This document shows positions 26,158-60,100 of a stretch of 64,000 nucleotides of DNA, one piece after another. The position numbers and the translations under genes are program-made. This stretch comes from Odiellus spinosus (Eukaryota > Arthropoda > Arachnida > Opiliones > Phalangiidae): NCBI GenBank assembly GCA_963920705.1, contig OY987234.1, positions 3,503,351 to 3,567,350 of the forward strand. The letters run 5' to 3'. Under the pieces are notes generated by a model. The model did no database searches, was not told where the DNA came from, and saw only the letters and a program-made list of their open reading frames with translations. The first letter of the stretch is position 1; each line of letters starts with the position of its first letter.

Positions 26158-26334
26158 ACTTCGGAATCCTTTTCGGTTCCAGCTTTTGCAGCAGTCAGTC
26201 GCTTTAGTTCGCTCCGTGTTCTTCTAAGCCTTTTCGCTTTCGCTTCGCGTTTACTTACTCTTTTGCCGTTTCCGTGCCTTTTCTCTTTTACGCAGCTTAT
26301 TCTCCTCGTTATTTCTTTCGTGTTTCTTAAGCCT

Positions 26335-27720: not shown

Positions 27721-30400
27721 CCTCCCTCCCAGCCACACATTCCTACAATGGAACATCCGAAGTGTTACCGCCAACTTTGGCGAACTAGCCGCCATCATTC
27801 TAGACCTCCACCCCGTCATCATAGCCCTCCAAGAAACTTTCCTCAAGCCTTCCTCCTCCACTAATCTCTCCTTTGGCACCTACACCAGCCTTCGCTCTGA
27901 CCGCACCACAAACCCTGGCGGTGGAGTGGCGCTCCTCCTCGCCTCCCACATCCCTCACACCCGTCTCCCGCTGCCCCCTCTGCCTCCACTTGAACTTATA
28001 GCGGCCCGCTGTCAAATCAACGACCTCTGGCTCACCGTAGTCTCTCTTTACGACCCTCATGGCACCGTAACTTCTGCTACTCTGGATGCCCTTCTTCTCC
28101 TCCTCCCCCCGCCCTTCCTCCTGCTGGGCGACTTTAACGCTCGCCACACCGATTTTGGCGATCTCCACACTACCACCCAAGGCCGACGCCTCGCCTCCTG
28201 GATCCAAGACAACACGGACCTCGTCCTTCTGAATGACGGTAGCGTCACTCGCCCAAGCCCCACAGGCGGCAGCATCCCGGATCTCACCTTAGCCACCCCT
28301 GACATCGCTGGCACCCTCACGTGGTCCACCGTTACCGCTGGTGGTAGCGACCACCACGCTATCTCCGTCACGCTTCCCTCCACTCCTCACGCGCTATCCC
28401 CGTCCTCCTTTCGGTGGGACCTGAAAAACGCCAACTGGTCGCTCTACACCTCCGTTCTAACCGCCAACCCACCACCGTTCCCCGACTCCGTTGACGCCAT
28501 TACAGCCGACCTTCAGGCCGCTGCAGCCGCTGCTATACCGTCTTCCGGCTCCACTCCCGATTCACCGTACCCCACGCCTCCTCCCTGGTGGAACTCCCGT
28601 TATCGCGTAGCAGTCCGTCGCGAGAGGGCCCTCCTTAAACGAGCTTCGCGCACCCACTGCCTATCGGACTATACCCGCTATCGCGCCGCCCGGGCCGCCA
28701 CCCGTCAACTCTTTCGCAGCCTCAAACGCCAGAGCTGGCACTCGTATTGCGCTCGACTTGCCTCTAATACCCCCCTCCCGCAAGTCTGGAAACGCGTCCG
28801 TTGGTTCTCCACCTCCCAGGAACCCCGTCGCACCCCGATTGTTCTACGGCACCACGACCAAGACCTAACCCATCCCCTGGCAGTAGGCACTCTCCTACGC
28901 GACACCATTCTCTCTACCTCCCCCACTCCCCCTCCCCCTCTCCCCCCCGTGGACGCCCACCCCTGGGGCCCGCTCCCGGACACCACAGGCTACAACGCTC
29001 CCTTCACTCTCGAGGACCTCGATCTCGCCATCGCCGCCCTCTCCTCTACCGCCCCTGGTCCCGACACCCTCTCAAATGACATGCTCCGTCATCTCCCCCA
29101 TTGCTCTCGCCTACGTCTCCTTGCCCTCTACAACGCCCTCTGGGCCCAAGGCACTATGCCCCACCAGTGGAAACGAGCCATCATCCTCCCCTTCCTCAAA
29201 CCAGGCAAGCCACCAACTCTACCAGACTCCTACCGCCCCATCGCCCTTCTAGACGTCCTAGGAAAACTGTTTGAACGCCTCGTCCTTCGCCGCCTCACCT
29301 CCTGGGCTGAATCCAACCACATCCTCCCAGACACACAATCCGGCTTTCGCACAAATCGCCAAACTGCAGACAACCTCGTGGCCCTAGTCACCACTGCACA
29401 AACCGCCATCGCCCACGACCACTATTGCACCGCTGTGTTCCTCGACATCAAGGACGCCTTTGGCAGTATTCACCCTGACGCCCTCCTCTGCAAACTCAAT
29501 AACTATGGCCTTTCTGGCCGCCTCCTCTGTTGGCTCCGTAGCTATCTCCACCACCGCACCGTCGCCGTCCGGACGGGTACAGTCACCACCCCCTACGTCT
29601 ACACCACCTTGGGCGTCCCGCAAGGTAGCGTCCTCAGCCCCATCCTCTTTACTCTCTTCCTCGCCGACCTCCACATTCCCCGCACCAACGGCGTCCTCGA
29701 CAGTGCCTTTGCAGACGACCTCCTCCTCTACATGCGCGACTCCTCACTCACCGACATCGAAACGGCCCTCCAAGTCGCCCTCAACATCACGCATGACTAC
29801 TCCCTACTCTGGGGCATCACTTTCCAACCATCCAAATGCAAGGTTTTGACCTTTGCCCGTCACCCAGAAACTCTGGACCCGGTAGTCCTCCGCCTGGGCG
29901 CCCACTATCTGGAAGAAGTCGTCACCTACCGCTACCTCGGCGTCCGACTCGACCAGTCTCTTACTTGGGCCCCCCACATCACCACCATGCTCCACTCAGC
30001 CCACCGCCGCCTTCACCTCCTCCGCAGTGTATCCGGCCAATCCTGGGGCGCCACCCGGTCTTCCCTCAAGCTCCTCTACACGCAATACATTCGCACCCTC
30101 TTCGACTACGGATCCCTCCTCTACGCCTCGGCCAAACCACCCCTCCTCCGTCGCATCGATCTCTTCGAACGTTCCGCACTCCGTACCATCCTGGGCGTTC
30201 CACCCTCAACTTCTATTGGCTCCATGTACGTGGAAGCCGGGATCATCCCCCTGCCTCTCCGACGACCGGAATTAGACGCGAGGTACTTGGCCCGTTGTGC
30301 CACTTCCGATGCCCACAATCTGTTCCGCACCACCCTATGGACCCTTGCCTCCGCCCCAACTGCCCCCCCCCTTCCCGCTCCCTTCCCTCCCGCGCTCTAG
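27701..30400 (+). CDS. LINE ORF2: endonuclease and reverse transcriptase
   Basis: 899 codons. The N-terminal AP endonuclease shows WNIRS, ETF, LLGDFNARHTDFG and SDHHAISV. The reverse transcriptase shows SYRPIALLDVLGKLFERL, FLDIKDAFGSIHP, GVPQGSVLSPILF and the catalytic FADDLLLYM. It starts at ATG 27701 inside ORF1, in the +1 frame. The frame closes at 30400 just after a nine-C run (30363-30371), and the rest of the protein continues in the -1 frame. Either one C has been lost or the ribosome shifts there. Confidence 0.92.
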   Translation: MTPRTPNLPPSHTFLQWNIRSVTANFGELAAIILDLHPVIIALQETFLKPSSSTNLSFGTYTSLRSDRTTNPGGGVALLLASHIPHTRLPLPPLPPLELIAARCQINDLWLTVVSLYDPHGTVTSATLDALLLLLPPPFLLLGDFNARHTDFGDLHTTTQGRRLASWIQDNTDLVLLNDGSVTRPSPTGGSIPDLTLATPDIAGTLTWSTVTAGGSDHHAISVTLPSTPHALSPSSFRWDLKNANWSLYTSVLTANPPPFPDSVDAITADLQAAAAAAIPSSGSTPDSPYPTPPPWWNSRYRVAVRRERALLKRASRTHCLSDYTRYRAARAATRQLFRSLKRQSWHSYCARLASNTPLPQVWKRVRWFSTSQEPRRTPIVLRHHDQDLTHPLAVGTLLRDTILSTSPTPPPPLPPVDAHPWGPLPDTTGYNAPFTLEDLDLAIAALSSTAPGPDTLSNDMLRHLPHCSRLRLLALYNALWAQGTMPHQWKRAIILPFLKPGKPPTLPDSYRPIALLDVLGKLFERLVLRRLTSWAESNHILPDTQSGFRTNRQTADNLVALVTTAQTAIAHDHYCTAVFLDIKDAFGSIHPDALLCKLNNYGLSGRLLCWLRSYLHHRTVAVRTGTVTTPYVYTTLGVPQGSVLSPILFTLFLADLHIPRTNGVLDSAFADDLLLYMRDSSLTDIETALQVALNITHDYSLLWGITFQPSKCKVLTFARHPETLDPVVLRLGAHYLEEVVTYRYLGVRLDQSLTWAPHITTMLHSAHRRLHLLRSVSGQSWGATRSSLKLLYTQYIRTLFDYGSLLYASAKPPLLRRIDLFERSALRTILGVPPSTSIGSMYVEAGIIPLPLRRPELDARYLARCATSDAHNLFRTTLWTLASAPTAPPLPAPFPPAL

Positions 30401-31464
30401 CCCTCATCGCCGCCCACAATCTCCACTGGCTCTTCGCTCTCCTCTCAACGGATTCGAAGTCCCTCTCCTACCCCACCCCGTCTCCCCCCAATCTCCGATA
30501 CCTCGACAAATGGTTACCGCAGACCAAGCGCCTCTACACCGACTCAGAACTCCGCCATCTCTTCTACTCACACCTTCAAACCGCCGCCCCTAATTCGTTC
30601 CTCCTCTACACCGACGGCTCACTCGACCCTTCAGCTGCAGCCTCAGGCGCGGCCTTCTACTCACCTCAGACCGACACTCGCCACCTCCACACCGTCCATC
30701 TGGGCCACGCTATAAGCAGGGTAGAGCTGTACGCCATCTACCGCGCCATCTGCTGGGGCCTCACTGCCTCTCCTCTACCTCTATGCATCTGCACCGACTC
30801 CCGCGCCGCCATCGCCACCCTCCGCAATCCCACTTCGGTGGACCCGTTAGTTTGCCTAACGCGCCGACTTCTCCTCCGCCACCCCCGCGACGTCCTTGTC
30901 TTTTGGACACCAAGCCACTCCACCATCCACCCCAATGACGTGGCCGACTCTCTCGCCGCCACGGCCATCGCCACTCGCCCACCCTTGATCACAGACACCC
31001 TACCGTACGTTTACAGTGAAATCAAATCTCTTCTCCGCCGCACCACCCTGGCTTCCTGGGCAACTTCCTGGGCCCGTGATGCAGGCGGTCGCCTCCTATA
31101 CACCTACCGCAGCGCCGTCTCCACCTCTCCCCCGGTCCACCATTTCCCCGACAGAGAGAGCGACACTCTCTTCGCCCGCCTCCACTGCAACCGCCTCCCC
31201 ACTAATGCTACCCTTTACCGATTTGGCCTTGCTCCTTCAACCACCTGTCCACACTGCCCTACACTCGACGACACCCTTTCCCACCGCCTATTCCACTGCC
31301 CCAATCTGGCGCACCACACCCGCTCCCTACACTCAGCGCTCACTCGCCGCTCCATACCCCTCACCCTACACCACCTCCTATTGCTCACTACTTCCGGCGA
31401 TCCCTCCATCAGCTGTACCCTGGCCTCCACCCTCCGCCTCCTCTTCCCCTCTCCCCAACGATAG
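30372..31464 (+). CDS. LINE ORF2 continuation: RNase H and C-terminal Cys/His motif
   Basis: Continues ORF2 in the -1 frame beyond the poly-C run (that frame is open from 29836, but only this part is homologous). RNase H catalytic residues are visible in YTDGSLD, VELYAIYRA, CTDSRAA and PNDVADSLA. A CPHC...H...C motif near the end resembles the zinc-binding tail of these proteins. The stop is at 31464, followed by 55 bp of 3' UTR and poly(A). Confidence 0.85.
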
Positions 31465-31560: not shown

Positions 31561-31719
31561 ACTTCGGAATCGGAACTAGAGAATTGTGCGTTAACTGCGA
31601 TGGTTTTTACTCTTTTTATTTAAAATTAAGCATTATCAAGTATTAATTGTTTACCTTAATTTTCATATGAAAAGAGTTTATTTCGTCATGTGAATGAAAG
31701 TCAATATTGCAAGAAAGAA

Positions 31720-31998
31720 ATGGACCTGGAACTCGAAAGTTTTGTTTCAATTATAACGCATACCTTGAAAGATCCTATTATCATTCCGGGAAAATGCATT
31801 TTCATTGCTGAAGATCTGTACATCTATGCCTCAAGATTATGCGAAATTGGGCCCATTGCCCGCCATTTATTTGGGCTGTGGTGTACTAGTTCTAAATCCT
31901 GGCTTAGTCCTTGCGAAGAAGTTGACGCCACTGGATCCAAAAAATGGGCATTTGAATTGAAGTTTCGCTTTAAATTACCGAATATAGGCAGACTCGAA
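31720..31998 (+). CDS. hop: Janus kinase (hopscotch) first recognised coding exon, FERM F1
   Basis: Encodes the start of the FERM domain of a JAK tyrosine kinase: AEDLYIYASRLCEIG then PIARHLFGLW, followed by a W-L-x-P segment and KKWAFELKFRFKLPN. This is the F1-lobe layout of JAKs, where I-x-P-I-A-x-x-L/VFGL and a W-x-x-P motif recur. I chose ATG 31720 because the frame has a stop shortly upstream of 31690 and no other in-frame Met. An upstream acceptor giving a non-initial exon is also possible. The donor GTAATA is phase 0. JAK FERM domains bind cytokine receptors at the membrane. Confidence 0.82.
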
Positions 31999-32060
31999 GT
32001 AATAATTTACGATATACTTATATTTTGAAAATATTATAGTTTCTTTTCCTCTCTTGATAG

Positions 32061-32357
32061 AAGTTGAAAGACCTGGCTGCGTTAAACTATTACTTCCATC
32101 AACTGAGGCACGATTTTCTCAACAGTAAGATTCCAGAAATGGTTCAACATAAGAACAAGGCGTTAGGACTAGCTGCCACTGATATGATTCGCGAAATGCT
32201 GGAGCAAAATTTAAATATTGAAGATATGAAACATCGCTACAAAGATTTTTTGCCTCGAGAATTATGGAAAAATCATAGGTACTGGGTAAAAACTCCTCTC
32301 TTGGAAGCCGTTAATCGGGGCTGGATAAATAGCAAACAGAATGTTGGCTACGTTAAA
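32061..32357 (+). CDS. hop: Janus kinase exon, FERM F2 lobe
   Basis: 99 codons, phase 0 at both ends, between CTCTTGATAG and GTAAGT. It reads KLKDLAALNYYFHQLRHDFL, then NSKIPEMVQHKNKALGLAAT, with the helical Y-F-x-Q-x-R-x-D-F and later A-x-D-M-x-R-E pattern of the JAK F2 lobe, then RYKDFLPRELWKNHRYW. The 62-bp intron before it is short. The intron after it is about 20 kb and holds most of the transposons of the window. Confidence 0.88.
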
Positions 32358-34810
32358 GTAAGTTTTAGTTTTATTCTATTGACTCTAAATAAGGCTTGTT
32401 GTGAACTCGATGGAATATAGGAGTACTCGATCTATTGGGTCAGTCCTAAAGGGAGCTGCCAAGGGAGACATTGATACGTCAGAGGTTCCTATCTCTCACA
32501 TCAGTGCAATCCCTCTAGTGAGGGAGTTACAGTATTCGCCATTACAAGCGGTCTCCCAGTAAGGGGATTCCATGATGTCAGGCTTTCTTTCCCCTCGGCT
32601 TTTTGCTGTCTCCCTATTATCGTACTCTATTATCAGAAGCGTACTCTATTATCAGAAGCCTAATGGCAAAGAGCCTTTGAAAAATTGCTAAGGGCAATTG
32701 ATTTGATTAAATAATTAATTATAGATTAATTACCAAAGCATGTTTTAGTATGTTTTTCCTGCGTAGCTCTTAGTGAAATGTAGTTAGGTTGAAATTCTTT
32801 CTCGCATTTCAAATACAAAAACTATATCTAGTACCTAAAATATTTTTTAAATTAATCACTCTAAAAGCAAATTAATTATCTAGTAAGAAGCTTAAAATCT
32901 CTAATTGAAAATATAGTTTTTGTCCGACGCAAGAAACTTTTTCCTAATAATAAATACATTTCTTTAGTACCTAAATATGTTTTCAAAACATTCAAACCAG
33001 AAGATAATTTAATATTAATTAAAACTAAAGTTTTCTTGCATATTTCATCAAAAAATATTATTAGGCTGAAAATTTTTTTGCATTTGGTTGAGCAAATCTT
33101 TAACTAGACCTAGAATCTAAAAAAACGTTTAGGATGCGTAATGTTTAAACATAGTTTATTATTTAAATAAAACCCCTGCAAACCGTTAAAGTCATCAAAC
33201 CAATAGGCGGCAGTATAGGGCTATTTTATAAGACTTCTAAAAATAGGGGAAAATCGTAACTAAGCTACTATCAGGAGGGGTGCAAAAGGGGATTTACTAG
33301 TGTCATAAAAACCTTAGGTAATACAATAACGAGGGCTAGCTATTAAGCTTTGAACATCGAGACTATTGACGAATTCGGACTGTCCATACTCATAAACCAA
33401 CTTCTAGGGGCTAGGTACAAATATAATGATGAATTATCGCAATAGATGGCGCGCCTACCCCTCACTCTATCTCTCGCTCTCGTACCTATCCACGCATTAC
33501 AACCGCTGCTATGGGAAACGTGTAGAGAGGAGGAATTATCGATCGCCTAGTTTGTCTCTCTCGTCATAGCGGATCAGAATGGGAACTACAACACTGACAT
33601 CTCTTAAGAGATCGGCGCGTAAAGAGTGTACTCCAATGGAGGCTGCCCGTGCAAGTTCCTCTTCAATTCCGAATTCGTCTATTTACAAATTAAAGGGATG
33701 TATTGCCCAGGGGGTCAAAGGATGGTGGACAATTTGTAGGAGGGTATTACTGTACCTGGGTCTAACTAAGGAAAATGAAATAACGAAAGTGAACGTTGGA
33801 GTAGAGATAAAAAACTAGGGAAAAGGCGACTTGGTATCTATTGGGTCGTGTCCCTTGAAAGACATCAGCCTTAACATTACCACATTTTTGGGTAAAATAT
33901 CGAGAAACGGTAAAAATGTTTTTAATTTCCAGTCAACCAGAGTTAGTTACTAAGCTAGTAGCTATCTTTGTATTGCTATCTTTGAGAAAATTGCTCTTGT
34001 CCAAGCCTGCCCAGGTACTGACTATTGTAACATCTTGTTTTTTAGAACCCCTCCATATTCAAACAGTTCTATATTTCTGTATGACTTGAAAACCGAATAA
34101 TATTGATATAAATCTGCATAGAAGTCTAGACTGTTGAAAGTTATCTATGATTTTTGAACTGTACTCTGAATCAGGTTTAGTTTTCAGAACAGGTGATTCT
34201 GAAGATCTCAAAGATATAAATAATAAATAGAAAGGGAGCTTGTCCTTTAACGTGCTGTAAATCAAATCAATTCAGGCTATTGTATGCCTACAGTTTTCAA
34301 CTTCAGTACTTTTATTTCACTAGGGATTTTTATGAAATAGTAGCTTGAGATAGTGTGTGTTTTTCTTTTGCAATTCATTTTGAAATGTTGACCCTCTGTT
34401 TAAAAAGTGGGTAGCCCTTAAAAGGGCTGTGGTTTTGATCAGTTTTATGCATCACGAGTCACGACCAGGATCAAAAATTATTATGAAAAAAATACTCAGA
34501 GTCTTTCAATCCTCTTTTCTTTTTCTTTTCTTTTTCGGTTTTTGTTTAGAGTTAGGGCCCTAAGGCCATTACAGCTCTTGAGTGTAAATTCTCCAAGAGA
34601 GAGGACAATACAATTAAGTTGATATAAAAACATAGTAAGTTTAAAATAGGATTAGGTTAAATTTTTAAATTGATATTTAAGTTAGGTTAAATTAAGATAA
34701 TAATTAGGATAAGTTAAATTAAGTTACTAAGTAGGTTAAGTTAGATTAAGTTAATAATTAGGGTAAGCTAAATTGATTTAATATTTAGGTTAAGTTAAAT
34801 TAAGTTAATA

Positions 34811-37662: not shown

Positions 37663-39918
37663 CTATATAACGTCTTTTGCTGTTTCCGCCAGGGCAATAT
37701 ATTCTGATTCTGCACTGGACTGAGCTACGCACATTTGTTTCGTTGATCTCCAGTGTACCGGATTATCTCCTATATTAATCAATAGTCCCGTTGTTGACTT
37801 TCTATCATCTAGATCAGAGCCCCAAGAAGCGTCTGAATAGGCTACTAAATTTATGTAACTTAATTGATGATAATTAAGTCCGTAGTCACTTGTATCTAGT
37901 ACATATTTTAGAACACGTTCTAAATTCTCACAATGTATTTTCGCCGGGTTCGATGAAAATCTTGCTAAACACGATACAGCGTAGGTAATATCTGGTCTGG
38001 TCCTCTGTGCGATATACGATAGTATTCCTATTAATCTTTTGTAAGGGTAATCTTCCGGATTGGTCTCTGGAGGGCATTGTCTTTTCGATAGTGTCAATCC
38101 CTCTGGTAACGGTGCTTCGTAAGTCTTCTTGGTTTTTATATTCCAAATTTGTTTCAATTTTTCTAGGTAACCCTTTTGGTGTATACGAATTTCTCCTTGT
38201 TTAGGAAATTCAAATTCAATTCCCAGAAAGTAATGTAAACCTCCAAGATCATCTACTTCGAATACATCTGAGATCTTCTTAAAAAGTTTCTGCATCGTCT
38301 TTTCATCCTTTGCGATTATTACTATATCGTCGACATAAACTAATAAAATGCCAGATCTTTTGTAATTATAAATACAATTACATCCTAATATTCTCGTAAA
38401 TCCAAGTTCGTTTAAACTGTGGTCTAATTCGTTGTACCATTCTCTTCCACTTTGTTTTAAACCATATAGGGCTTTCTTTAAACGCCATACTTTATTTTCT
38501 TTCCCCTTCTTTAAAAAACCTTGAGGTTGCTTTACATATATTTCTTCCTCGAGATTTCCATACAGATATGCACTCTTTATGTCTAATTGTTTGTGACACC
38601 ATCCCATACATGCAATAAATATTAGTATGCACATTCTTATTAACGTAAAATTTACTACGGGTGCATAAGTTTCGTTGTAGTCTCGTCCTTGTACTTGAGT
38701 ATAGCCTTTAGCTACAAGTCTTGCTTTATGTCGTATGATCTCACCCTTTGCATTTCTTTTTATGGCATAAACCCATTTGGTTCCAATTAGCTTCTTGTCT
38801 TTAGGTTGATCGACGACTTCATAAACTTCTCGCTTCTTAAACGTTTTTAATTCAGTTTTCATTGCTTTTCTCCAACTTTCCCCGTCTTCACTATTTATAG
38901 CTTCGTTGAATGATTCTGGTAGGGTAGTGCAATGTAGTTCTACGTTTCCTACATACGCTTTCTTTACCGTTGGTTTCTTTATCGGTTTGAATGAAAAATT
39001 TGATAGATCGTGTTTCATTTTATTTTGTTTTAAATAAGTGCGTACTTCATTCTCTGTTTTGAAACGTTTATCCTTGTCCGAAAAATAATATACATCCACT
39101 CGTCCTTTACATTGTCCTTTAGTTCTTATCTTTTCTTCACGACGCCAACCCTTAGGTAGGATAGGTTTCTTTGGAGGAGTTGCAGAATTTTCTTCTTCAT
39201 CTTCTGAATTTTCTAAGTCAGTGGAGGTATTTTCGAGTTGTAAATCGTGTTCTTCTTCTTCTGCTGAACTCTCTTCTTCTTCTGAGCTTTCTTCGTTTTC
39301 AACTCCCCCTTCTAATATTTTCACCTTTTCTTTCTGTTTACTTGTAGTTGGTATTTCTTCGGTGTCTACCTCTTCATCTTCAGGTAACCAAAATTCGTTA
39401 AATAATTCGGTATACTGTTCTTCTTTGGTTTCACGTAAAGCCTTTATACCCAATTTGTTCTCATTAAAAGATACGTGTTTCGTTTCCATAACTCTACCTT
39501 CCGAAGGAAACCATATTCTATATCCTTTCGTTTTGATCGCGTATCCAACCATTATCCCCAGCTTCGATCTGTTTTGAAATTTATTTCGATTTGGTTTCGG
39601 GATAAATACAAATGCTAAACATCCGTATCGCTTTAAGTGTCGTACTGATGGAATTTTCCCTGACCATCTTGTTATAGGGACTTGAGGTAATTTCGAATGA
39701 GGCAACCTGTTCGATAAATAAGTAAATGCTTGAACTGCTTCACCCCAACACTTCTGCGGTAATTCTGCGTCCTCTAAAAGTGTCCTAACTCCGTCCAATA
39801 GAGTTCTATTCCATCTCTCGGAAATTCCGTTCATCTCTGGTGTATAAACATTAGTTCTTTGTACTTGAATTCCTAATTTATTACATGACTCTTCAAATCG
39901 TCGTGAACAGTATTCCAT
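37663..39918 (-). pseudogene. Copia pol, second open part: integrase end, reverse transcriptase, RNase H
   Basis: 751 codons open. It begins in the integrase core (YTPEMNGISERWNRTLLDG carries the catalytic Glu region), then the RT with GTKWVYAIKRNAKGEI, KARLVAKGYTQ, QLDIKSAYLYG and the YVDD box in LLVYVDDIVII, then RNase H with SDASWGSDLDDRKSTTG and SSAESEY. It is out of frame with the upstream gag-pol part. It stops early in RNase H at a TAG where family members have Trp, and the remaining homology (37560-37660) needs a further frameshift. Confidence 0.88.
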
Positions 39919-39922
39919 TCCA

Positions 39923-41692
39923 TTATCTGTTCGTAAGTTCTTGACGTTCTCCTGTTTGACGTTCTACAAACGCTTTATACTCCTGAAATTTGTCGAATGC
40001 TTCATCTTTTCTCTTCATCAGGTATACAGTAGCTCTTCGAGAATAATCGTCGATGAAGGTTATTATATATTTGGCTCCTGATAATGAATTAACCGGAGCT
40101 GGTCCCCAAACGTCACTATGTATAATTTCTAATACTTTCTTTGTTGCTATCCCTTTAAGTTCTTTCGAAGATGTTTTTGAAGCTTTTGATAAACGACATG
40201 GATTACAGATATCCATTTTCCCTTTCAGGTCTGGTAAACCTTCAACCATATTATGATGGTGAAGTTTCTTCATTCTATCTTCACTCGGATGACCCAGTCT
40301 TTTATGCCATAATACTAAATTATTCGATGATGTACTAAAGTAAGTACTTGCGTCATTTGATTCTTGTTTTATATCTTCTACATAACTTTTCGTAATGTAT
40401 AGATTCTCTTCTGATAAATAAGCATTCATTAATAGTTTCTTCTCATCGTCAAATATTTCGACTGTTCCGTTGTTAATCACCGTTTTGCATCCCTTATTAT
40501 CGAATTTTCGTATTGATAATAAATTCCTACTATAACCAGGTACGTATATTACTTCTTTTAAGGTGATTACCTCTTCTCCATTTCTTATTGTTAATTTGAT
40601 ATCTCCGATGCCAACTGCTTTTGTACCTCCTTCGGCTATCTCGATAGGTGTATCCATAGTTCGATAATTCGAAAACCATTCTTTTCTGTTACTAAAATGA
40701 TGCGATGCACCGCTGTCTAGTATCCACGCGTCTTTATCTACACTAGCCGCCATTAATGTTGTTGCTAAGAAAGTTCTACCTTTAGAGGGCTTCTGTTCTT
40801 TAGTTCCTTGACTATTCTGATTTGTTGATTTCTTACCCCGACAATTTCTTGCGTAATGCCCGGGTTTTCCGCAATTATAACAATTGAAATCATTTGTAGA
40901 AGATTGTTTCTTACTTTGGTTCTGGCTTCTTGTTCTACTGTTAATTCGATTTCTATTTACTGACGAAGTAAATCCAGACTGTTGCTCAGGTTGATTTTCT
41001 TCTGATTCTTCCCGTCGTTGACGATCATATTCGGAAATCAGCAACTCCTTTACTCTTGTTGGTGTGAAATCTACATCCTCCCAATGATATGCTAGTGCCG
41101 CTACTTGACGATACTCTTGTGGTAGTTTATGTAGCATTTGGAACGCTATTTCTGTATCGGTCAATTTTAATCCAGCCTCCTCCAAGTGTTGTGCTATACA
41201 GATTATCTTCGCCATGTATGGTGACATAGATTCAATTCCATCGTATTTACAACTTATGAATTCGGATCGTAAGTCTGCTATTCTTGCCTTTGATTTAGGT
41301 TCATAAATGTCCTTTAACGCTCCCCATACGTCCTGTACTGTATCATACTGTGCTACGATTCGTTTATGTGTATTATCCAACGCTAATGACACCTTTGATA
41401 ATGCTTTCTGTGCCAGTCGTTGATATTTTTCTTTTGCTGCGATCGACGCTGATTCGGCTGGTTCTGTAATAGTACCGTTTAATAAACCCCATAGGCCATA
41501 ATACAATAAAGCCATCTTCATGTCAAATTTCCAGGTTTCATAATTAGTATCATTTAATTTGGCAAATGAAAAAGTTCCTCCCAGTTCTTCATTATTTTCA
41601 GCCATTATTAACTCTTCTGTAACTCTTAGTTCATTAACTTCACTTATTAATACCTCCTCTGTAACTCTTTGTCCATTATCTTTACTTGCCAT
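39923..41692 (-). pseudogene. Copia gag and first part of pol: Gag, protease, integrase
   Basis: 589 codons. The Gag N-terminal domain (YETWKFDMKMALLYYGLW) lies near residues 51-70, the zinc knuckle CYNCGKPGHYARNC at 271-284, the protease with DSGA in WILDSGASHHFSN at about 323-335, and the integrase zinc domain (H...H...CNPC) and first catalytic Asp (IHSDVWGP) near the C terminus. The frame is lost close to 39945-39970, between the first and second catalytic Asp of the integrase, so this copy cannot make a full polyprotein by ordinary translation. Confidence 0.9.
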
Positions 41693-48012: not shown

Positions 48013-49414
48013 GGTATCCCATTTTGCTACTGGTGACTAGTATCAAGTATCAACCCACTTCTCGATACGATTTTTGAGGAACCTCCACAGGCTCAAGCGG
48101 TAGTTATTAGTCCCTTATTTTTTAAATTTAAGAGTTTTTGATTTTATGGGTGTTTGAGAATTCAGTGCTTGCAAAAAAGAATATACAAGAACAATAAAAG
48201 AGTACCTCATAACGGCCAAAACCAGTGCTGGCCCGTAAATATTCCACATCCCCAATACAGGGTGTAGGAGTTGGTTCCCAAAGATGTGACTTTGGCAGTG
48301 CACAAGAAGATACGAAACTTACTCGCTTTACCAATTACATATCCTAATTCTAACTTACCATCATCTATTTTATTTTGTTCAGATATAGATAACGGGGTTC
48401 ATGCAGGGAGGTTTTATGTCGTTAGGAATAATTATGTTGTTAGCAGTTGTGTCCTTGTGGCAATATGACTTTACTAATTGCAGCTCCAAAAGCTTAATTT
48501 AACCAAAATGTTTCCGTCATTTTGAAATTGCCAAAATTGAGGTGGGCCAAAAATGTGTGTCTGGGGTTTTATTTTTGGGAACTTAAAAATTAATGTTTAA
48601 AGTATCTTTTAAATAAATATTTACCTTCTGTTAAATCGTTTTTTGTTTTTTGGGTGGAAAAACAATCATTTTAGTTTCAACATTTTAAAAATATTTTGAC
48701 TACTATATCGAATTGCACTAATGGATATGAATTATGCGAGTAAACTTAAAAGAGCTGACTTGTTTACCAATGATCATTTAAAAAAAACCAATATATAAAG
48801 TATACTAAGAAGTATAATCGCTGCTCGTTTTTATTTTTGGTTGCTGTTTTTCAAAACATGTTTTGCACCCTGAGAAATAGGCGAAATCTATCACTGCATA
48901 CGATACATTCTAATGTTGGGCGTGGTTTCAGTCTCCAATGAGTAATAATAATATTTATTTCGCTAATATGTAGCAGGCAACCTCGGAGGCATATGGGCTA
49001 ATCGGCAAAGTTCAGAGGCTGTCGCTAATTGCCGCCAGTCCTCCACATATTTTATATTCCAAGAAATAATTTACTGATAAATTAAAAAAACTAAGGAACT
49101 TTCCTCAATAATCCTATATAAAAAAGAAATAATATCCTGGCTGATTAAGACTGGTACTTTGAGGTTGAATTCTTTGTTAGATAATTAGTAATTGTATATA
49201 GTACTAATGATTAATGCGAAAAATCTTACTGCTTATTCTTTATTCCTTATTCCCCATTTTTACTTATAATATCTAATATTATAAGAAACATTTTTGTGAA
49301 CTCCCAGCCACGCACAAGCAATTCTTGCTTATGTGGCAAAGGGAGGATGAAAACTTAAATTAACAAATTAATTATGTAACTTATTGCATCATAAAATAAA
49401 ATAAAAAAAAAAAA

Positions 49415-51637
49415 AATTAATGCGCGTTTAATTCTAAATTAATGCGCGTTTAATTCTAAATTAATGCGCGTTTAATTCTAAATTAATGCGCGTTTAATTC
49501 TAAATTAATGCGCGTTTAATTCTAAATTAATGCGCGTTTAATTCTAAATTAATGCGCGTTTAATTCTAAATTAATGCGCGTTTAATTCTAAATTAATGCG
49601 CGTTTAATTCTAAATTAATGCGCGTTTAATTCTAAATTAATGCGCGTTTAATTCTAAATTAATGCGCGTTTAATTCTAAATTAATGCGCGTTTAATTCTA
49701 AATTAATGCGCGTTTAATTCTAAATTAATGCGCGTTTAATTCTAAATTAATGCGCGTTTAATTCTAAATTAATGCGCGTTTAATTCTAAATTAATGCGCG
49801 TTTAATTCTAAATTAATGCGCGTTTAATTCTAAATTAATGCGCGTTTAATTCTAAATTAATGCGCGTTTAATTCTAAATTAATGCGCGTTTAATTCTAAA
49901 TTAATGCGCGTTTAATTCTAAATTAATGCGCGTTTAATTCTAAATTAATGCGCGTTTAATTCTAAATTAATGCGCGTTTAATTCTAAATTAATGCGCGTT
50001 TAATTTTAAATTAATGCGCGTTTAATTCTAAATTAATGCGCGTTTAATTCTAAATTAATGCGCGTTTAATTCTAAATTAATGCGCGTTTAATTCTAAATT
50101 AATGCGCGTTTAATTCTAAATTAATGCGCGTTTAATTCTAAATTAATGCGCGTTTAATTCTAAATTAATGCGCGTTTAATTCTAAATTAATGCGCGTTTA
50201 ATTCTAAATTAATGCGCGTTTAATTCTAAATTAATGCGCGTTTAATTCCAAATTAATGCGCGTTTAATTCCAAATTAATGCGAGTTTAATTCCAAATTAA
50301 TGCGCGTTTAATTCCAAATTAATGCGCGTTTAATTCCAAATTAATGCGCGTTTAATTCCAAATTAATGCGCGTTTAATTCTAAATTAATGCGCGTTTAAT
50401 TATAAATTAAAGCGCGTTTAATTCTAAATGAAAGCGCGTTTAATTCTAAATGAATGCGCGTTTAATTCTAAATGAATGCCCGTTTAATTCTAAATGAATG
50501 CCCGTTTAACTCTAAATGAATGCGCGTTTAACTCTAAATGAATGCGCGTTTAATTCTAAATGAATGCGCGTTTAATTCTAAATGAATGCGCGTTTAATTC
50601 TAAATGAATGCGCGTTTAATTCTAAATGAATGCGCGTTTAATTCTAAATGAACGCGCGTTTAATTCTAAATGAACGCGCGTTTAATTCTAAATGAACGCG
50701 CGTTTAATTCTAAATGAACGCGCGTTTAATTCTAAATGAACGCGCGTTTAATTCTAAATGAACGCGCGTTTAATTCTAAATGAACGCGCGTTTAATTCTA
50801 AATGAACGCGCGTTTAATTCTAAATGAACGCGCGTTTAATTCTAAATGAACGCGCGTTTAATTCTAAATGAACGCGCGTTTAATTCTAAATTAACGCGCG
50901 TTTAATTCTAAATTAACGCGCGTTTAATTCTAAATTAACGCGCGTTTAATTCTAAATTAACGCGCGTTTAATTCTAAATTAACGCGCGTTTAATTCTAAA
51001 TTAACGCGCGTTTAATTCCAAATTAACGCGCGTTTAATTCCAAATTAACGCGCGTTTAATTCCAAATTAACGCGCGTTTAATTCCAAATTAACGCGCGTT
51101 TAATTCCAAATTAACGCGCGTTTAATTCTAAATTAACGCGCGTTTAATTCTAAATTAACGCGCGTTTAATTCTAAATTAACGCGCGTTTAATTCTAAATT
51201 AACGCGCGTTTAATTCTAAATTAACGCGCGTTTAATTCTAAATTAACGCGCGTTTAATTCTAAATTAACGCGCGTTTAATTCTAAATTAACGCGCGTTTA
51301 ATTCTAAATTAACGCGCGTTTAATTCTAAATTAACGCGCGTTTAATTCTAAATTAACGCGCGTTTAATTCTAAATTAACGCGCGTTTAATTCTAAATTAA
51401 CGCGCGTTTAATTCTAAATTAACGCGCGTTTAATTCTAAATTAATGTTCGTTTAATTCTAAATTAATGTTCGTTTAATTCTAAATTAATGGGCGTTTAAT
51501 CCTAAATTAATGGGCGTTTAATCCTAAATTAATGGGCGTTTAATCCTAAATTAATGTGCGTTTAATTCTAAATTAATGTGCGTTTAATCCTAAATTAATG
51601 TGCGTTTAATTCTAAATGTGCGTTTAATTCTAAATTG
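49415..51637 (+). repeat. 22-bp satellite array, about 100 units, CGCG-containing
   Basis: Near-perfect tandem units of TTAATGCGCGTTTAATTCTAAA. Variants occupy ordered blocks: TTAATGCGCG to about 50410, TGAATGCGCG to about 50645, TGAACGCGCG to about 50885, TTAACGCGCG to about 51435, then TTAATGTTCG, TTAATGGGCG and TTAATGTGCG at the right edge. In the ACGCGCG blocks each unit holds the perfect palindrome AACGCGCGTT. Lies in JAK intron 2, about 840 bp before the next exon. Confidence 0.97.
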
Positions 51638-52475
51638 ATGATAAAATTTGGTTAACGAAAGTGCTTCATATATTAAATATTCTCAATAACTGTCACGATA
51701 GGCCAAAACAAAGACCTAGGGTATGGGGAATGTGGAAAAACCAAACACTTTGCAAACAGTATGATTGGTATAAAAACCCACTATTCAGTCTTCCTCGTGG
51801 GCTCACTGAGCTGTGTAGTTGAAAGACAAAAATGATTTCTGGATTCAGAATTGGTGGTTCCCGATTCTGAATGTAATGAGCATCCTTGTCGAAAAGCTTA
51901 AAGTTTAAACTTAATTATAAAATTATTTAAGGTTAAAATAAATTGAAAAATATTGTAACCGGGGAAAAATTAGGTGGCTTTCTCTATTTATTTATTTTTA
52001 TTATCTAATCTATTTTTCCCCAGGTTTACTTAATTTCCTTTCAAAGGAATTGGGAAATATTTTCTAAATATTATAATGTATTGCCCTCGCGTTAACGTTG
52101 ATCTCCTTTCCTCCAAAATGATGAAAAGATTAGTTGTTTACATAAATAATTACAATTTTATTCTAAGCTTTTACTCGGTATTTTATTTCTTGATATATTC
52201 TCTTTGAGAACACAAATCTATCTCTCTAGAAATCTATTATCAATCTGTTAACAATCTCAGTCTGTCTTATTTTCTCATTGTGATACAAAGAAAAAGGGGG
52301 TGGAACTTTGCAACAGGGAGTCCAGCTGGAAATTTGTCTAGTAATAAAGATTTTGAGTTATTAACAAAGTGCAGCGCTTCCTTGTTGAAAATTTGATAAT
52401 GAACTTTACCCGCAAACAGTAATTGGAATTTTAGAATAAATATCGTAGTCTTGATGCTTTACTCAATCTTTTCAG

Positions 52476-54092: not shown

Positions 54093-54690
54093 TCAGGTGT
54101 TAAAATTTGGGTTAATAGTGGTCAAAAGTCTAAGGGAACTCCAACGAAGAAGAAGGTCTTTAACCTTGTCAATGATAGTATAATCAACCTGTACAAATCC
54201 AAGAAGGCCCGGTAAATGAGGTGAGTCCATAAACGAAGCGGGGAGACCATTCCTCTCCTGAGAAAGAGCCTGGCAGTGTAATAAAATATGAGGCATATCT
54301 TCAACCGGAGCACCACAAAGGGGGCAAGCTGGGTCCTCCCCAAATATGTCGGAGAGTCGCGAAGCCGTGGGCAAGGAACCGACGCGAGCGAGAAAATAGA
54401 GGTTACTGGCCCGACCATTCGAATAAAACCTCTCTACCGATGGACAGTCCTTTGCTCGGTATAGAGAAAGGCTATCATGGCGTTCAACTTCAGCTTTCCA
54501 ATACGCGGTCGAGTTCTCCCGGACCGCCCGGCGCACCACATTGCTCCACTCCCGCAACGACTCCACATCACCCCGAGGGTGGCCCTTGCCAAACTTGCAG
54601 TCTAAGTGCCATATGCGATTAATCCATTTAGTTCTGTGACCCATGGCACGGAGGTACTCGTATACCTGTTTCGCCCAAGGAATAGAAGCT
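54093..54690 (-). pseudogene. LINE C ORF2 C-terminal part (frameshifted)
   Basis: Open from 54644 with MGHRTKWINRIWHLDC; homology extends upstream to about 54690 in the same frame. It has a Cys/His motif CPLCGAPVEDMPHILLHC of the reverse-transcriptase zinc-binding type. It lies one frame away from the main ORF2, with the shift between about 54680 and 54700. Ends NPNFNT. Confidence 0.82.
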
Positions 54691-57439
54691 TACTAGACGC
54701 CTCGCGTTCGACGAAGGTAGACCAGGCAAGCTCACCTTTGATGGCAGCGTGGGAGGTCATAAAGTTTCCTCCGATTCCAGCTTTGCCCACCACAAACTGT
54801 GCTTGATCGAGGCAACGAGTTGTTTGTTCGGAGAGACACAGAACTTCATTCGAGTACGTCAAGCTTGGAACGGCAACAGACTTCCATAAGGTACGGGTGA
54901 CAGTGTACTGGTTGTAAGAATGCGCTCCTTTGTGTTTCACTGCCCCCATGTAACGTCTGGCCCTCGTGCGTAAATTCTGTTCATGAGGGTCCAGGTATGT
55001 AAAAGAGTCGTTAAGCGTAACGCCCAGATACTCTCCGGAGCTACATCTCTTTATTGGACTTCCCTGGATTGAAAACGCGAAATCAGGTATCGAAAGAGGG
55101 GCTCCCAGGTACATGACGAAGCATTTTGATGGGCTGAAGAGAAGACCCATATCCGACGCAAAATCACCACAAATGTCGAGCAGGTTTTGCAGGGAAGCTT
55201 CGCAATCCGAGACGCAAAAAATATCGTCGGCGAAGAAAAGTCCTGGGATTGTAAAGTCCAATAAAATGTTTGAAGGATGGCGCAACCGATAATCCAAACC
55301 GCTCGCCAACAAACTACGAGAGAGTGGTTCCAAGAAAAGCGCGAAGAGTAGCGGTGAGAGTGGGCATCCCTGTTTCAGGCCAACGCGACTCGCGAGATAA
55401 TCCGTAGATATTTTTCCAAATAAAAATCTATATTTCGTAACCGAATACAGCGCAGAAATATGCTCTACAAAATTCTTCGGAATACCAAGGTCTAAAAGCG
55501 TGCTCCAGAGACGTTCCCTGTTAACCGAGTCGTAAGCCTTCTTGAGATCAAGAAACGCGACGTGAAGTTCACGGCCCTCTATTCTCGCAGTTTCAATTAG
55601 TTGCGTAAGCACAAACAAATTGTCAGCGCCGCGTCTTCCACGACGGAATCCATTTTGTAGTTCGCCAAGGATAGCGTGACTTTCAACATACATTTCGAGA
55701 CGGTGCTTGAGTAGTGACATGTATAGCTTCGAAAGACACTGAGAGAGGGCAATGGGACGATAATTGTCTAGTTCTAGCGGGTCTTTAGTACCCCCTTTAA
55801 ATAATAAGCGAATGTCAGTTAAAGACCAAGACTCGGGTATGTCATTCGTAGTTAGAACGGTGTTGAACAGGTGACAGAGGGTAAAACGAGCCGCAGGACC
55901 GAGGGCGCGTAATAGTTCATTAGTTATCTGGTCTTCCCCAGCCGCTTTACCAGTAGGTAGACGTCGAATAGTTTCATTTAACTCAGGAACGGTAATATTT
56001 TCAGTAAGAGTCGAATCCAGATTAAACGAAGGGGCTACGACTCGAAATCTAGGCGAGATCAATGAAGAGTGTCGCGCGTGGAGAGCTTCCTCTTCCATGA
56101 TAGCAAATTCCTCCAATCGGTGCTGCACCTCTATGGGTGATTCAAGAATGTTCAAACCCGAAGCATCCTTTATCGCGAGAGCGGGTTGGGCGGTAGGTTG
56201 TTCCTTGAAGAGACGCCAAAACTTTTTGGAAGCGAGGTTTCCGGCTGAGAGGATGTCATCTTCAGTTTGGCGGTCAATTTCTTTTATTTTCCTAGAAATT
56301 AAAGCCGTAACCCGCCTCTTTTTCTCCAAGAAGAGGTCCCAGTGATATTGTATTATTTCCTTTTCATAGACGAGCGGTTTACGGGAAAACCGGCGGTACA
56401 CCTTGTTCGCCTCCTTTCTTTCCGCTATGGCCAGTTTCACCTCACGATCAAACCAACGTTTTTGAATACGCCTTTTCGAATCGCCTGTTGTTCTGCCCAA
56501 GTGTTTAGTAGCTGTATCGATTATTAGACCCTGAAAGGTTCCATAATCTGTTTGTTCAGAGGCCTGAATCGCTTTATCCAAATCAACACTATAAGCAACC
56601 ATGGTATCTTCATTTTGAGTTCGCCAGCGCACTTCACACTGTGAGTTCGTAGCGATTGGGCGTGTCAGAGCAAGGTTGAACTCAGCTATAAGAGCGTTAT
56701 GATCGCTTCCAAAGCTCCAGAGACCATCTTCGTGGATCACAAGACCAACCAGAAGGTTTGACATTAAGGGGTTGCAAAGGGCATAGTCAATAGAAGACGT
56801 AAGACCACGGGCGGACCATGTAACCTTTCCCGCGCACATAGCTGGATCCAGATTTGTTATAGAGAAGTCATGATCAGTAGCCCAGGACCTCAGGGCGGTG
56901 CCGTTAGTATCTTCATAACCATCCAGATCATGCAAGTGGCCATTAAAATCACCCACAAGGTAAACTGGAAGAGTATCGGAGGGGTTCAGACGTACCAAGT
57001 CAGCCGACATGCAGGACCAGATGGATTCGTTCCAAGAAGCTTCTTCTTTAGCGGTAGCGATATACACCACCCCTAGCATGAAAACCATCTCGGCAGCCTT
57101 TATTTCCAACCATAAATGTTCTTTACAATAGTGTGACCCGAGGCAGCTGACACCCTCCCTCAACACGACACCAATACCACCACCTTTCTTCTGACCTTTT
57201 GATCGATTTACACCATACCACTGGAAGCCTTGACCAAGTTCTGGACTTTCGTCGTCTCTGAGAAACGTTTCCGCAACACAAAACACCATGGCTTGCGACC
57301 GAACCATTTCTTGCTCTATTTCTTGCCAGAGTTCTCGCTTTCGGCCACCCTGAACGTTTAGGAACCCAATCTTCAAGTAATTTAGTTTAGCTCTCTTTCT
57401 CTTTGCTCTTCTTGGTTTTTTCTTTTGCTGCGTGCCCAC
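54602..57439 (-). CDS. LINE C ORF2: endonuclease and reverse transcriptase
   Basis: 945 codons. A basic start (KKKPRRAKRKRAK) is followed by the AP endonuclease with IGFLNVQGG, VAETFL, YLVGDFNGHLHDLD and GSDHNALIAEF, then the RT with NYRPIALSQCLSKLYM, AFLDLKKAYDSVNRERL, GLKQGCPLSPLLFALFLEP and the catalytic FFADDIFCVSD. It starts 9 bp after the ORF1 stop codon. The last 15-20 residues before 54602 are out of frame relative to the element's own C terminus, which is the only lesion I see. Confidence 0.9.
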   Translation of the reverse strand: MGTQQKKKPRRAKRKRAKLNYLKIGFLNVQGGRKRELWQEIEQEMVRSQAMVFCVAETFLRDDESPELGQGFQWYGVNRSKGQKKGGGIGVVLREGVSCLGSHYCKEHLWLEIKAAEMVFMLGVVYIATAKEEASWNESIWSCMSADLVRLNPSDTLPVYLVGDFNGHLHDLDGYEDTNGTALRSWATDHDFSITNLDPAMCAGKVTWSARGLTSSIDYALCNPLMSNLLVGLVIHEDGLWSFGSDHNALIAEFNLALTRPIATNSQCEVRWRTQNEDTMVAYSVDLDKAIQASEQTDYGTFQGLIIDTATKHLGRTTGDSKRRIQKRWFDREVKLAIAERKEANKVYRRFSRKPLVYEKEIIQYHWDLFLEKKRRVTALISRKIKEIDRQTEDDILSAGNLASKKFWRLFKEQPTAQPALAIKDASGLNILESPIEVQHRLEEFAIMEEEALHARHSSLISPRFRVVAPSFNLDSTLTENITVPELNETIRRLPTGKAAGEDQITNELLRALGPAARFTLCHLFNTVLTTNDIPESWSLTDIRLLFKGGTKDPLELDNYRPIALSQCLSKLYMSLLKHRLEMYVESHAILGELQNGFRRGRRGADNLFVLTQLIETARIEGRELHVAFLDLKKAYDSVNRERLWSTLLDLGIPKNFVEHISALYSVTKYRFLFGKISTDYLASRVGLKQGCPLSPLLFALFLEPLSRSLLASGLDYRLRHPSNILLDFTIPGLFFADDIFCVSDCEASLQNLLDICGDFASDMGLLFSPSKCFVMYLGAPLSIPDFAFSIQGSPIKRCSSGEYLGVTLNDSFTYLDPHEQNLRTRARRYMGAVKHKGAHSYNQYTVTRTLWKSVAVPSLTYSNEVLCLSEQTTRCLDQAQFVVGKAGIGGNFMTSHAAIKGELAWSTFVEREASSKLLFLGRNRYTSTSVPWVTELNGLIAYGT

Positions 57440-57448
57440 GTGCTCGAT

Positions 57449-58414
57449 TCATTGTTTGGACTGCCCTTCCTTGCTACTTGTACTTTTTCCACGCCTACGG
57501 GCTAGATAGGAACGTCTGTTCCATAGCTCTTGTCGTGTTAAGTCCGGTCGAATAAAAATATTTTCAAAGCCTGGCTTGGACTTTAGGGTACTGGCCTTGT
57601 CCAGGATGCGTTTCCTCGCTGACTGAGAATCTAAAGTGATGCAAAAAGGAGGGGCCTTATTTTCAGCACCTCTCAGGCGTACGCTATGCGTAACGGTGAC
57701 AGAGGAAGATTCGAGATCCAGGGCGGTTTCTAACCAACGTGCAGCTTCTACTGGGTCTGATAATCCGTCAGCATCACCGCCAAAAATCATCACATTTTGA
57801 GCTCTGGCTTCATGATCTTGCACCTCCTTTATAACACGACGTGCAGCAAAGTCTATAGTACCATTTGGCAGGGTAGGAGTAGCCCCAGTACCAATCGATT
57901 TTTCCAAACGATGCACCTCGCTTCGCAGCTCCTCCAGGTTTTTCTTGGTAGTCTCTCTAAGTTTCGCCACGTCTTCATGAACCTCCTCAAACTCAGTAGC
58001 TACCGCGGCAAAGTGCCCATTCACGACGGAAATTTCATCCTTTAGTTTCTCGGTCACTAATTTGCTGCAATACTGTTCAATATCAATTCGTAAGCCCGAT
58101 AGTTTAGAATCCAAATCTGCCGCAATTTCAGAGCGTAACGAGTCGAGCCCCGCGGACAACATTTTTCCAAGCAAAGCATCAATCGAGCGTAAAAATCCGT
58201 CCTGATCGTCCGTCACACTTTTATTCGAAGAAGGCGCAGCCTTGGCGGAAGTAGCTTTCATACCCTCCGTTATAGCTTTCGAGCTTTGCGTGAGAGGGTA
58301 TTTTTTGTTGCCAGTTCGTGCAGTTCCCGAAAGATGGGGTGATGCCAAGTTCGAATTGTTCAGTCTGTCATGAAGACGAGTACGAATTTGGGCAACCTCT
58401 ATATCACTCGCCAT
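57449..58414 (-). CDS. LINE C ORF1: coiled coil plus RRM-like RNA-binding protein
   Basis: 321 codons, intact. A polar N-terminal part is followed by helical heptad-like sequence at about residues 85-170 (FEEVHEDVAKLRETTKKNLE). An RRM-like domain with AQNVMIFGGDADGL, RWLETALDLE and VTHSVRLRG follows, and the end is basic (RQELWNRRSYLARRRGK). The layout is that of trimeric LINE ORF1 proteins that coat element RNA. No zinc knuckle and no PHD finger. Confidence 0.85.
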   Translation of the reverse strand: MASDIEVAQIRTRLHDRLNNSNLASPHLSGTARTGNKKYPLTQSSKAITEGMKATSAKAAPSSNKSVTDDQDGFLRSIDALLGKMLSAGLDSLRSEIAADLDSKLSGLRIDIEQYCSKLVTEKLKDEISVVNGHFAAVATEFEEVHEDVAKLRETTKKNLEELRSEVHRLEKSIGTGATPTLPNGTIDFAARRVIKEVQDHEARAQNVMIFGGDADGLSDPVEAARWLETALDLESSSVTVTHSVRLRGAENKAPPFCITLDSQSARKRILDKASTLKSKPGFENIFIRPDLTRQELWNRRSYLARRRGKSTSSKEGQSKQ

Positions 58415-58640
58415 GAACGAAAAGCGCTAGGATCCGAGGGGGGCAAGAAAACAAGACAGCACCCACCGTTTAAAATGGCGGATAAACCGAAGAGGTACGC
58501 GAAGAAGCACGATGAAGCTCTGCTGAAACTGAGACGGTTCACGTAGCCGAGAACGCTGGGAGGAATGGCGGGATGAATTTGTACCGTTAACGTACGAAAG
58601 CGGCCGACAGAAATATTGAGAAATCGAGTAAATACTGTAC

Positions 58641-58927: not shown

Positions 58928-59414
58928 GGAGTACCCATAGATATCGTATATATAACTGGCTAGATACCGTATTAAATCGAGGGAAAATACGGGAGGTATA
59001 GATAGCAGACTACGGCTATGGAGACCTACAATGCTGGGGAAAAATCAGATCAGCGCCATCTATACCCGAAAATGGAAAGCTCAAAATGCGAGAAGTTTAA
59101 TTTTCCCGCTTCGGCCTTTTTTTTTTTTTTTTTAATATTATTCGACAGAAGAGAATGAAATCGGCTCAAAACGTGTTAAAAAAGTTGTTTTTTACATGAT
59201 CCATCAATTTTTAAAAGGTAAATATAACATATATATTATTTAAATCAATAAATATTATTTGGTTCGCTAACCCTTGGCCTTCTCTATAATGGAATTTCAG
59301 TTTAACTCTGCTTACAATTACGATACAAGTTCTAGAACTGACTACAAGACGAGCAAAATGGGTGAATATTTTGACTTTGCATGACAAGGGAAGCGTAATC
59401 CTTTTCAAATAGAT

Positions 59415-59703
59415 TCAATGTTGAAGAATAAAGTTTGAATTACCCGCGGAATAAAAAATATTTGCTTTACCGCCATCCACCATCAAGATGGTTGATTGTT
59501 GATTAAACACTACCAAAAAGTGTAATTGCTTAAGTATAAACCTTGGAAGGTATTGCTTGCTTTGAAAGAAATCGTTTCGGTGGACAATATCACTTTCCAA
59601 AAAATGTTCGCTGCAAATGAAGGAATTGGAATTAGGCCTAAAATCATCTAAATCAACAGCCTCAATCCATTTGGCATGTAATTCCGGGTTGGATATGGTA
59701 AAT
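59415..59703 (-). CDS. THAP-only protein, exon 2
   Basis: Follows the acceptor AATTTATAG. One base completes an Ile codon, then FTISNPELHAKWIEAVDLDD, FRPNSNSFICSEHFLES and a tail to TGA at 59415. The W, FRP and CSEHF (Cys-x2-His) elements are the second half of the C2CH THAP zinc finger. About 50 residues after the domain have no recognised similarity. Alternative donors (CCAAG before GTTTAT, or TTTTTG before GTAGTG) could link to exons outside the element, but none was found. Confidence 0.75.
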
Positions 59704-59764
59704 CTATAAATTTGCATGATATTAGTTATTAATTTACTTAATTCTTGAGTAGTTTTGTTCATAC

Positions 59765-59835
59765 ATGTGAAAAGATATTTCTTTTCTAGTGGTTGACTTT
59801 TTACGGCAATGTGAAAACGAACAGGTTTTAACCAT
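59765..59835 (-). CDS. THAP-only protein, exon 1 with start codon
   Basis: ATG at 59835, reading MVKTCSFSHCRKKSTT then RKEISFH plus two bases, with donor GTATGA. It provides the Cys-x4-Cys pair of the zinc finger at the extreme N terminus, where THAP domains sit, and the ISFH segment expected before the F-P motif. A 61-bp intron (59704-59764) with correct GT-AG ends and matching phase joins it to exon 2, for a 119-aa product. Confidence 0.75.
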
Positions 59836-60100
59836 TTTGTATTAAAAAAAAAACACTTGCTTCAAAAATAGCCGAGCTTTATTTCTTATAGTTTCTTTAC
59901 AAAAGAAACAAAAATTCCCGCGGGTTTTTGAAAAAGCACTTAATTAGAGGTTCCAGGTATCTAATATAGATGGCGGTGTTCAGATTTTTCCCCAGATAAT
60001 AACCGTCGTCTGCTATTTGTCCCCTCCGCGTTTTACTCCTCGGGCCTAACCCAGGGAAATGTATCTAGCCAGTTATATATACGATATCTATGGGAGTACC

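Follow-up and report, generated by a model that had tools for sequence, protein, structure and literature searches.

Short, internally deleted derivatives are a common form of the P element in Drosophila, where they may be the preferred substrates and can give rise to repressors if the DNA-binding part is kept (PMC12393704, PMC6917496, PMC7776569). Such non-autonomous derivatives, KP among them, are able to retain the N-terminal THAP part (PMC7776569, PMC12393704). The KP repressor consists of 207 aa (PMC7776569) and dimerizes, according to the title of a paper cited in the same source. An even shorter derivative, Har-P, of about 630 bp, dominates new insertions and needs transposase from other copies (PMC6917496).

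Related elements have been described outside Drosophila. In Anopheles gambiae, the seven full-length P subfamilies carry terminal inverted repeats (TIRs) of 27-31 bp, and the P elements and P-MITEs of this mosquito are associated with 8-bp target site duplications (TSDs) and include non-autonomous copies related to a master element (PMC1562414). In zebrafish, the Pdre/THAP9 elements start with CATA and occur in multiple internally deleted copies, and Pdre2 combines TIRs of 13 bp (CATACCTGTCAAC) with 8-bp TSDs and with subterminal repeats of 12 bp (PMC10983969, preprint). Among the open-licence papers listed in literature searches, no title or abstract opening named a short P-type element with a THAP-only frame.

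Here, we describe an element from Odiellus spinosus which belongs to a recently mobile, non-autonomous family, most likely, judging from its sequence anatomy and that of its relatives, of the P superfamily. The window analysed is a stretch of 64,000 nucleotides of genomic DNA, in which the element, 1,157 bp in length, occupies positions 58936-60092. The original prediction had described an 8-bp duplication and CA...TG termini, and both were confirmed: the duplication is perfect, with GGAGTACC directly on both sides of the element, and the termini lie at 58936 and 60092. An inverted repeat without mismatch extends over the outermost 32 bp of the two ends, CATAGATATC...GATATCTATG; inverted-repeat detection assigns it 34 nt because two flanking bases pair as well. 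Further inward, the similarity is patchy and comes down to two blocks, of 36 and 52 nt, at 75%; the proposed inverted ends thus hold for the outer 32 bp, and inverted repeats of 150 bp as a single unit were rejected. The terminus is not a chance feature: at a tolerance of up to 3 mismatches, its first 24 nt occur in the window at the two element ends only (mean 0.00 in 100 shuffles), and the element recurs in the genome. Viral contigs queried with the 31-nt terminus gave 0 matches.

Between the TIRs and the interior, three subterminal blocks are mirrored in the window copy at nearly equal distances from the two ends (Table 1). The outermost of these, ATAGCAGACxACGG at 67 and 77 bases, is a candidate binding region for the transposase or its THAP domain; in P and Galileo elements, THAP binds at sites located about 41-70 bp from the ends (PMC3688188). 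The element shares TIRs and subterminal repeats, the CATA start, the 8-bp TSD and the occurrence in multiple copies that are, here apparently, internally deleted with Pdre, from which it differs in the length of the TIR (32 bp compared with 13 bp) and in that a full-length transposase is known for Pdre and is not in hand here.

Table 1. Coordinates of the element and its parts, as positions in the window
Feature	Position	Strand	Remarks
Left TSD, 8 bp	58928-58935		GGAGTACC; the other seven copies read each have their own, different perfect 8-bp TSD
Left TIR, 32 bp	58936-58967	+	Perfect
Subterminal block ATAGCAGACTACGG	59002-59015	+	Start at base 67, mirror at base 77 (counted from left and right end, respectively)
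Subterminal block TGGGGAAAAATC	59035-59046	+	Base 100 from left end; mirrored at base 99 from right end
Subterminal block GCCATCTATA	59055-59064	+	Base 120 from left end; mirrored at base 119 from right end
THAP exon 2, as read in window copy	59415-59703	-	Sister frame only down to 59574/59575, then frameshifted tail
Central variable block, filler A	59420-59494		Common to window copy and L002; other sequence in L003-L008; borders set by hand
Junction of 7-bp deletion	59574-59575		TTTGCCA on plus strand in the seven sister copies read; shifts THAP frame
Intron	59704-59764	-	61 nt, GT...AG, codon 24, phase 2; variant-free in eight copies
THAP exon 1	59765-59835	-	71 nt, ATG at 59835; carries C5, C10, H23
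Mirror of GCCATCTATA	59965-59974	-	
Mirror of TGGGGAAAAATC	59983-59994	-	
Mirror of ATAGCAGACTACGG	60003-60016	-	ATAGCAGACxACGG
Right TIR, 32 bp	60061-60092	-	Perfect
Right TSD, 8 bp	60093-60100		GGAGTACC

The element was compared with the assembly from which the window derives (443,074,358 bases, or 443 Mb, in 286 contigs). The 134 match rows, spread over many contigs, were grouped by hand into at least 40 places; 252 candidates were found at first look and 40 were scored, so that all copy numbers given here are lower bounds. Among these 40 places, 22 contain the whole query in one piece, 16 contain both ends in two pieces and 2 contain the right-hand part only. The two-piece places span about 1.05 to 1.58 kb, as obtained by subtracting coordinates by hand, and longer copies lie on C4, C8 and C244. 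Two pairs of copies of the class of about 1.45 kb, opposite-facing and about 10 kb apart, were noticed at C8:4939042-4951682 and C244:40937-53922; these pairs are perhaps two alleles of one region.

Eight copies, the best matches among the 40 places, were read base by base (L001-L008, L001 being the window copy). They measure 1,157-1,195 bp, longer than Har-P, and in their case, too, dependence on another copy would be expected. Perfect 32-bp TIRs are present in all eight, the outer 31 columns at each end are free of variants, and every copy is flanked by a private perfect 8-mer, with eight different 8-mers among the eight copies. Other copies with the same termini, on which the original prediction had made its case depend, are present in number. 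When the eight TSDs are oriented with the element, they display a loose majority pattern, GTnGAAAC as the aligner prints it, hinting at an insertion preference.

The copies are nearly identical. Pairwise comparison of the seven sister copies yields 3-9 differences per 1,080-1,108 compared sites and comparison of the window copy with the sister copies yields 8-17 per 1,070-1,071, with window positions 59430-59515 masked and with a small number of columns at the filler's left edge scored as differences between filler types; of the eight, the window copy has diverged furthest. This low divergence indicates that the family moved recently. Filler A may be the original inner sequence of the element, given that element positions 1-553, which take in most of it, are matched at 99% in six further two-piece places. 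The presence of two central fillers in near-identical copies, together with the size range of the two-piece places, fits several independent internal deletions.

All seven sister copies read encode, through the same two exons, a protein of 83 aa that comprises a complete THAP domain, with the stop codon just behind it: MVKTCSFSHCRNKS...HIFPI(S/Y)NPELHAKW...ICSEHFLESDIV(H/Y)RNGKRFLSKQAIPSKVYT. The form encoded by L002 matches the Pfam THAP profile PF05485 with E 1.1e-15 (58.6 bits; profile positions 1-85 of 87) and the human THAP1 structure 2ko0 with E 4.2e-14, residues 1-79 aligning with 1-79 without gaps. By sequence, the THAP1 zinc finger provides the closest solved structures, and the zinc ligands carry the same numbers, although THAP1 is a cellular gene and not a transposon. 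The position and phase of the element's intron coincide with those of the first intron of human THAP1, which follows coding base 71. Apart from the zinc ligands, Pro26, Trp36, Phe58 and Pro78 are key residues of THAP domains; a literature search on these four residues returned no THAP paper. In THAP1 numbering, L002 contains C5, C10, P26, W36, C54, H57, F58 and P78, and all eight of these positions are retained in each of the seven sister copies, as is the AIPS sequence that resembles the AVPTIF box. This box, at the end of the THAP domain, supports folding, and changes in it have been found to lower protein stability (PMC7334247, PMC6944463).

The presence of this frame raises the possibility that a working repressor of minimal size is made from the sister copies. 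Consisting of THAP alone (83 aa), it would occupy the transposase sites on the element ends in the manner of KP, so that the family limits its own spread, the window copy being a broken member. Apart from the intactness of the domain in all seven sister copies, and its near-complete match to the profile and to THAP1 with the key residues in place, this reading gains from the definition of putative P repressors by an interrupted transposase and a retained DNA-binding domain (PMC12393704), which the anatomy of the sister copies fits. The frame has no counterpart in the text on the A. gambiae MITEs drawn on here, which makes no mention of a complete THAP frame such as that seen in 7 of the 8 copies read (PMC1562414). 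The KP protein, however, is longer and, going by the title mentioned above, dimerizes, whereas the 83-aa product stops at the THAP domain and has no separate dimerization region. A further difference from KP is the intron that splits the THAP domain of the element at codon 24.

Relative to L002, the codon differences are N12K and P26T in L001, for which the comparison covers only the 66 codons ahead of the deletion, S28Y in L007, I37N in L003 and L007, and H65Y in L006. All five changed codons are nonsynonymous, compared with a random expectation of 79%; there is no sign of selection, with little power to detect it from five changes, and constraint on the product is not apparent, a point against a repressor. 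Relaxed codon evolution, one of the refuting conditions named in the original prediction, is compatible with these data. At less than 1% divergence, seven open frames out of seven would be expected without selection. Furthermore, the match table leaves element positions 554-712, where the second half of the THAP domain is encoded, without a match at C3:4836989-4838041, and positions 554-639, where the domain ends, without one at five other places; these six places argue against retention of the THAP frame throughout the family. On balance, we consider a repressor function of the sister copies unlikely, if worth keeping in view. Less likely again is its extension, under which many copies of this short P-derived family would retain a spliced THAP-only gene for the smallest P repressor in nature; this gene would spread along with the sites that its product binds, and transposition would be damped as copies accumulate, with the window copy as a dead member. 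That the THAP frame of all seven sister copies could have been kept for a reason is, nevertheless, a point against the explanation that we prefer, namely, passive derivatives produced by internal deletion.

Assignment of the family to the P superfamily rests on the TSD length, the ends, the subterminal blocks and the THAP domain. Taken together, the 8-bp TSD, the TIRs with CA...TG termini, the subterminal inverted blocks, the N-terminal THAP domain and the dispersed copies, a mark of transposition, fit this superfamily, and we agree with the original prediction in regarding the element as of a non-autonomous P type. A different superfamily (hAT, PIF/Harbinger or Kolobok) with a captured or common THAP gene might be considered, as hAT elements also generate 8-bp TSDs and the P catalytic part is not in hand for this family. 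The TSD of Kolobok is TTAA and that of PIF/Harbinger is 3 bp long, neither of which fits the element. THAP has been found beside DDE_Tnp_4 as well (PMC13228809, preprint), but it is P elements that are matched jointly by the 8-bp TSD, THAP, the CATA...TATG ends and the mirrored subterminal blocks, which makes another affiliation very improbable. Remnants of a transposase were sought in part of the 3' region and in filler B, which contains a C-terminal-looking frame. Neither yielded a Pfam match at a limit of E 10; at the same limit, the filler B frame had no match in the PDB.

The explanation that we favour, and hold to be probable, is that the family is young, that it consists of derivatives of a P-superfamily transposon produced by internal deletion and moved in trans, and that the window copy is a decayed passenger. 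Under this scenario, a full-length relative, present in the genome now or recently, would supply the transposase. This enzyme would recognise the mirrored subterminal blocks along with the common 32-bp ends, and would insert the copies with 8-bp TSDs. Internal deletion would have taken out the middle of the transposase gene, sparing its first two exons, those for the 83-aa THAP product, beside the ends. The window copy would have acquired its frameshift and the P26T change later. The family resembles the A. gambiae P elements and P-MITEs in the similar length of its TIRs and in its 8-bp TSDs and would, like those non-autonomous copies, be related to a master element. It would be akin to KP in what it retains, although the products differ: 207 aa in KP, 83 aa with THAP alone in the sister copies and 119 aa, frameshifted, in the window copy.

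The THAP gene of the window copy itself fits the role of a passenger. The two minus-strand exons, the splice sites and the 119-aa product of the original prediction were borne out by a GT...AG intron and a match to PF05485 (E 9.9e-11, 42.7 bits). The product aligns with residues 1-66 of human THAP1 (E 5.8e-10) without gaps and with the numbering in step (C5, C10, W36, C54, H57, F58), so that all four C2CH ligands, C5, C10, C54 and H57, are present and W36 and F58 are retained. The finger is not the full one that had been claimed: the profile match covers positions 1-71 of 87, P26 is replaced by T, and the window copy lacks the C-terminal end that THAP1 possesses. Alone among the eight copies read, it is missing 7 bp at 59574/59575 and departs from the sister frame after HRN, before P78 and the AVPTIF end; downstream of the deletion, its residues are out of the sister frame, and the last stretch lies inside filler A. 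Given this frameshift and P26T in comparison with the seven sister copies, an intact THAP protein from the window copy was rejected, and the 119-aa frame is presumably a decayed leftover devoid of a function of its own. That the 119-aa product of this copy works as a repressor or as a small transcription factor, as had been proposed on the strength of the open spliced frame, the four zinc ligands and the THAP match, is scarcely credible in view of P26T, a frameshift inside the THAP domain that is absent from the seven sister copies and removes the AVPTIF-like end, and an out-of-frame tail that ends in a filler absent from six of the eight copies; the idea survives for the sister copies only, with their complete 83-aa domain.

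The element was further placed by the original prediction in an intron of a JAK gene, antisense to it. Upstream of the element, the plus strand contains JAK-like FERM F1 (PF18379, 1e-6) and F2 (PF18377, 2.7e-8) frames at 31660-32417, for which the best solved match is JAK2, a weak one (E 0.0094), and the THAP gene runs opposite to these frames. Among the plus-strand stop-to-stop peptides of at least 15 aa after 60092, inspected by eye, no JAK exon was recognised, and one of these peptides had no Pfam match. The opposite orientation thus stands, and a location inside a JAK intron is no more than plausible.

Other repeats populate the window. Two LINEs with long open frames for endonuclease and reverse transcriptase occupy 26098-31464 (plus) and 54602-58426 (minus); both are possibly young, and the latter lies about 0.5 kb to the left of the element. 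A Ty1/copia element at 37663-41692 (minus) has a pol frame in which aa 263-327, placed between the integrase/SH3 part and the reverse transcriptase, match a methyl-CpG binding domain (PF01429, E 2.7e-14) that may serve in targeting; a literature search for this combination returned 0 papers. A 22-bp satellite at 49414-51640, with about 101 copies matching at 98%, falls in the interval that separates the JAK-like FERM frames from the P-type element. A 30-bp minisatellite is present at 1446-1681 (about 8 copies) and 2455-3667 (about 40 copies), and in the longer array four frames, counted over both strands, stay open for about 400 codons, which a period of 30 allows.

The family provides a clean, recent example of what appear to be P-type elements with internal deletions, in which the ends are identical and the TSDs fresh. 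It also illustrates that a protein which looks plausibly 'intact' in a single copy can turn out, on comparison with sister copies, to be a frameshifted remnant. Should it be true that the 83-aa THAP protein of the sister copies is made and binds the element ends, the family would offer a minimal test case for the self-limitation of P elements.
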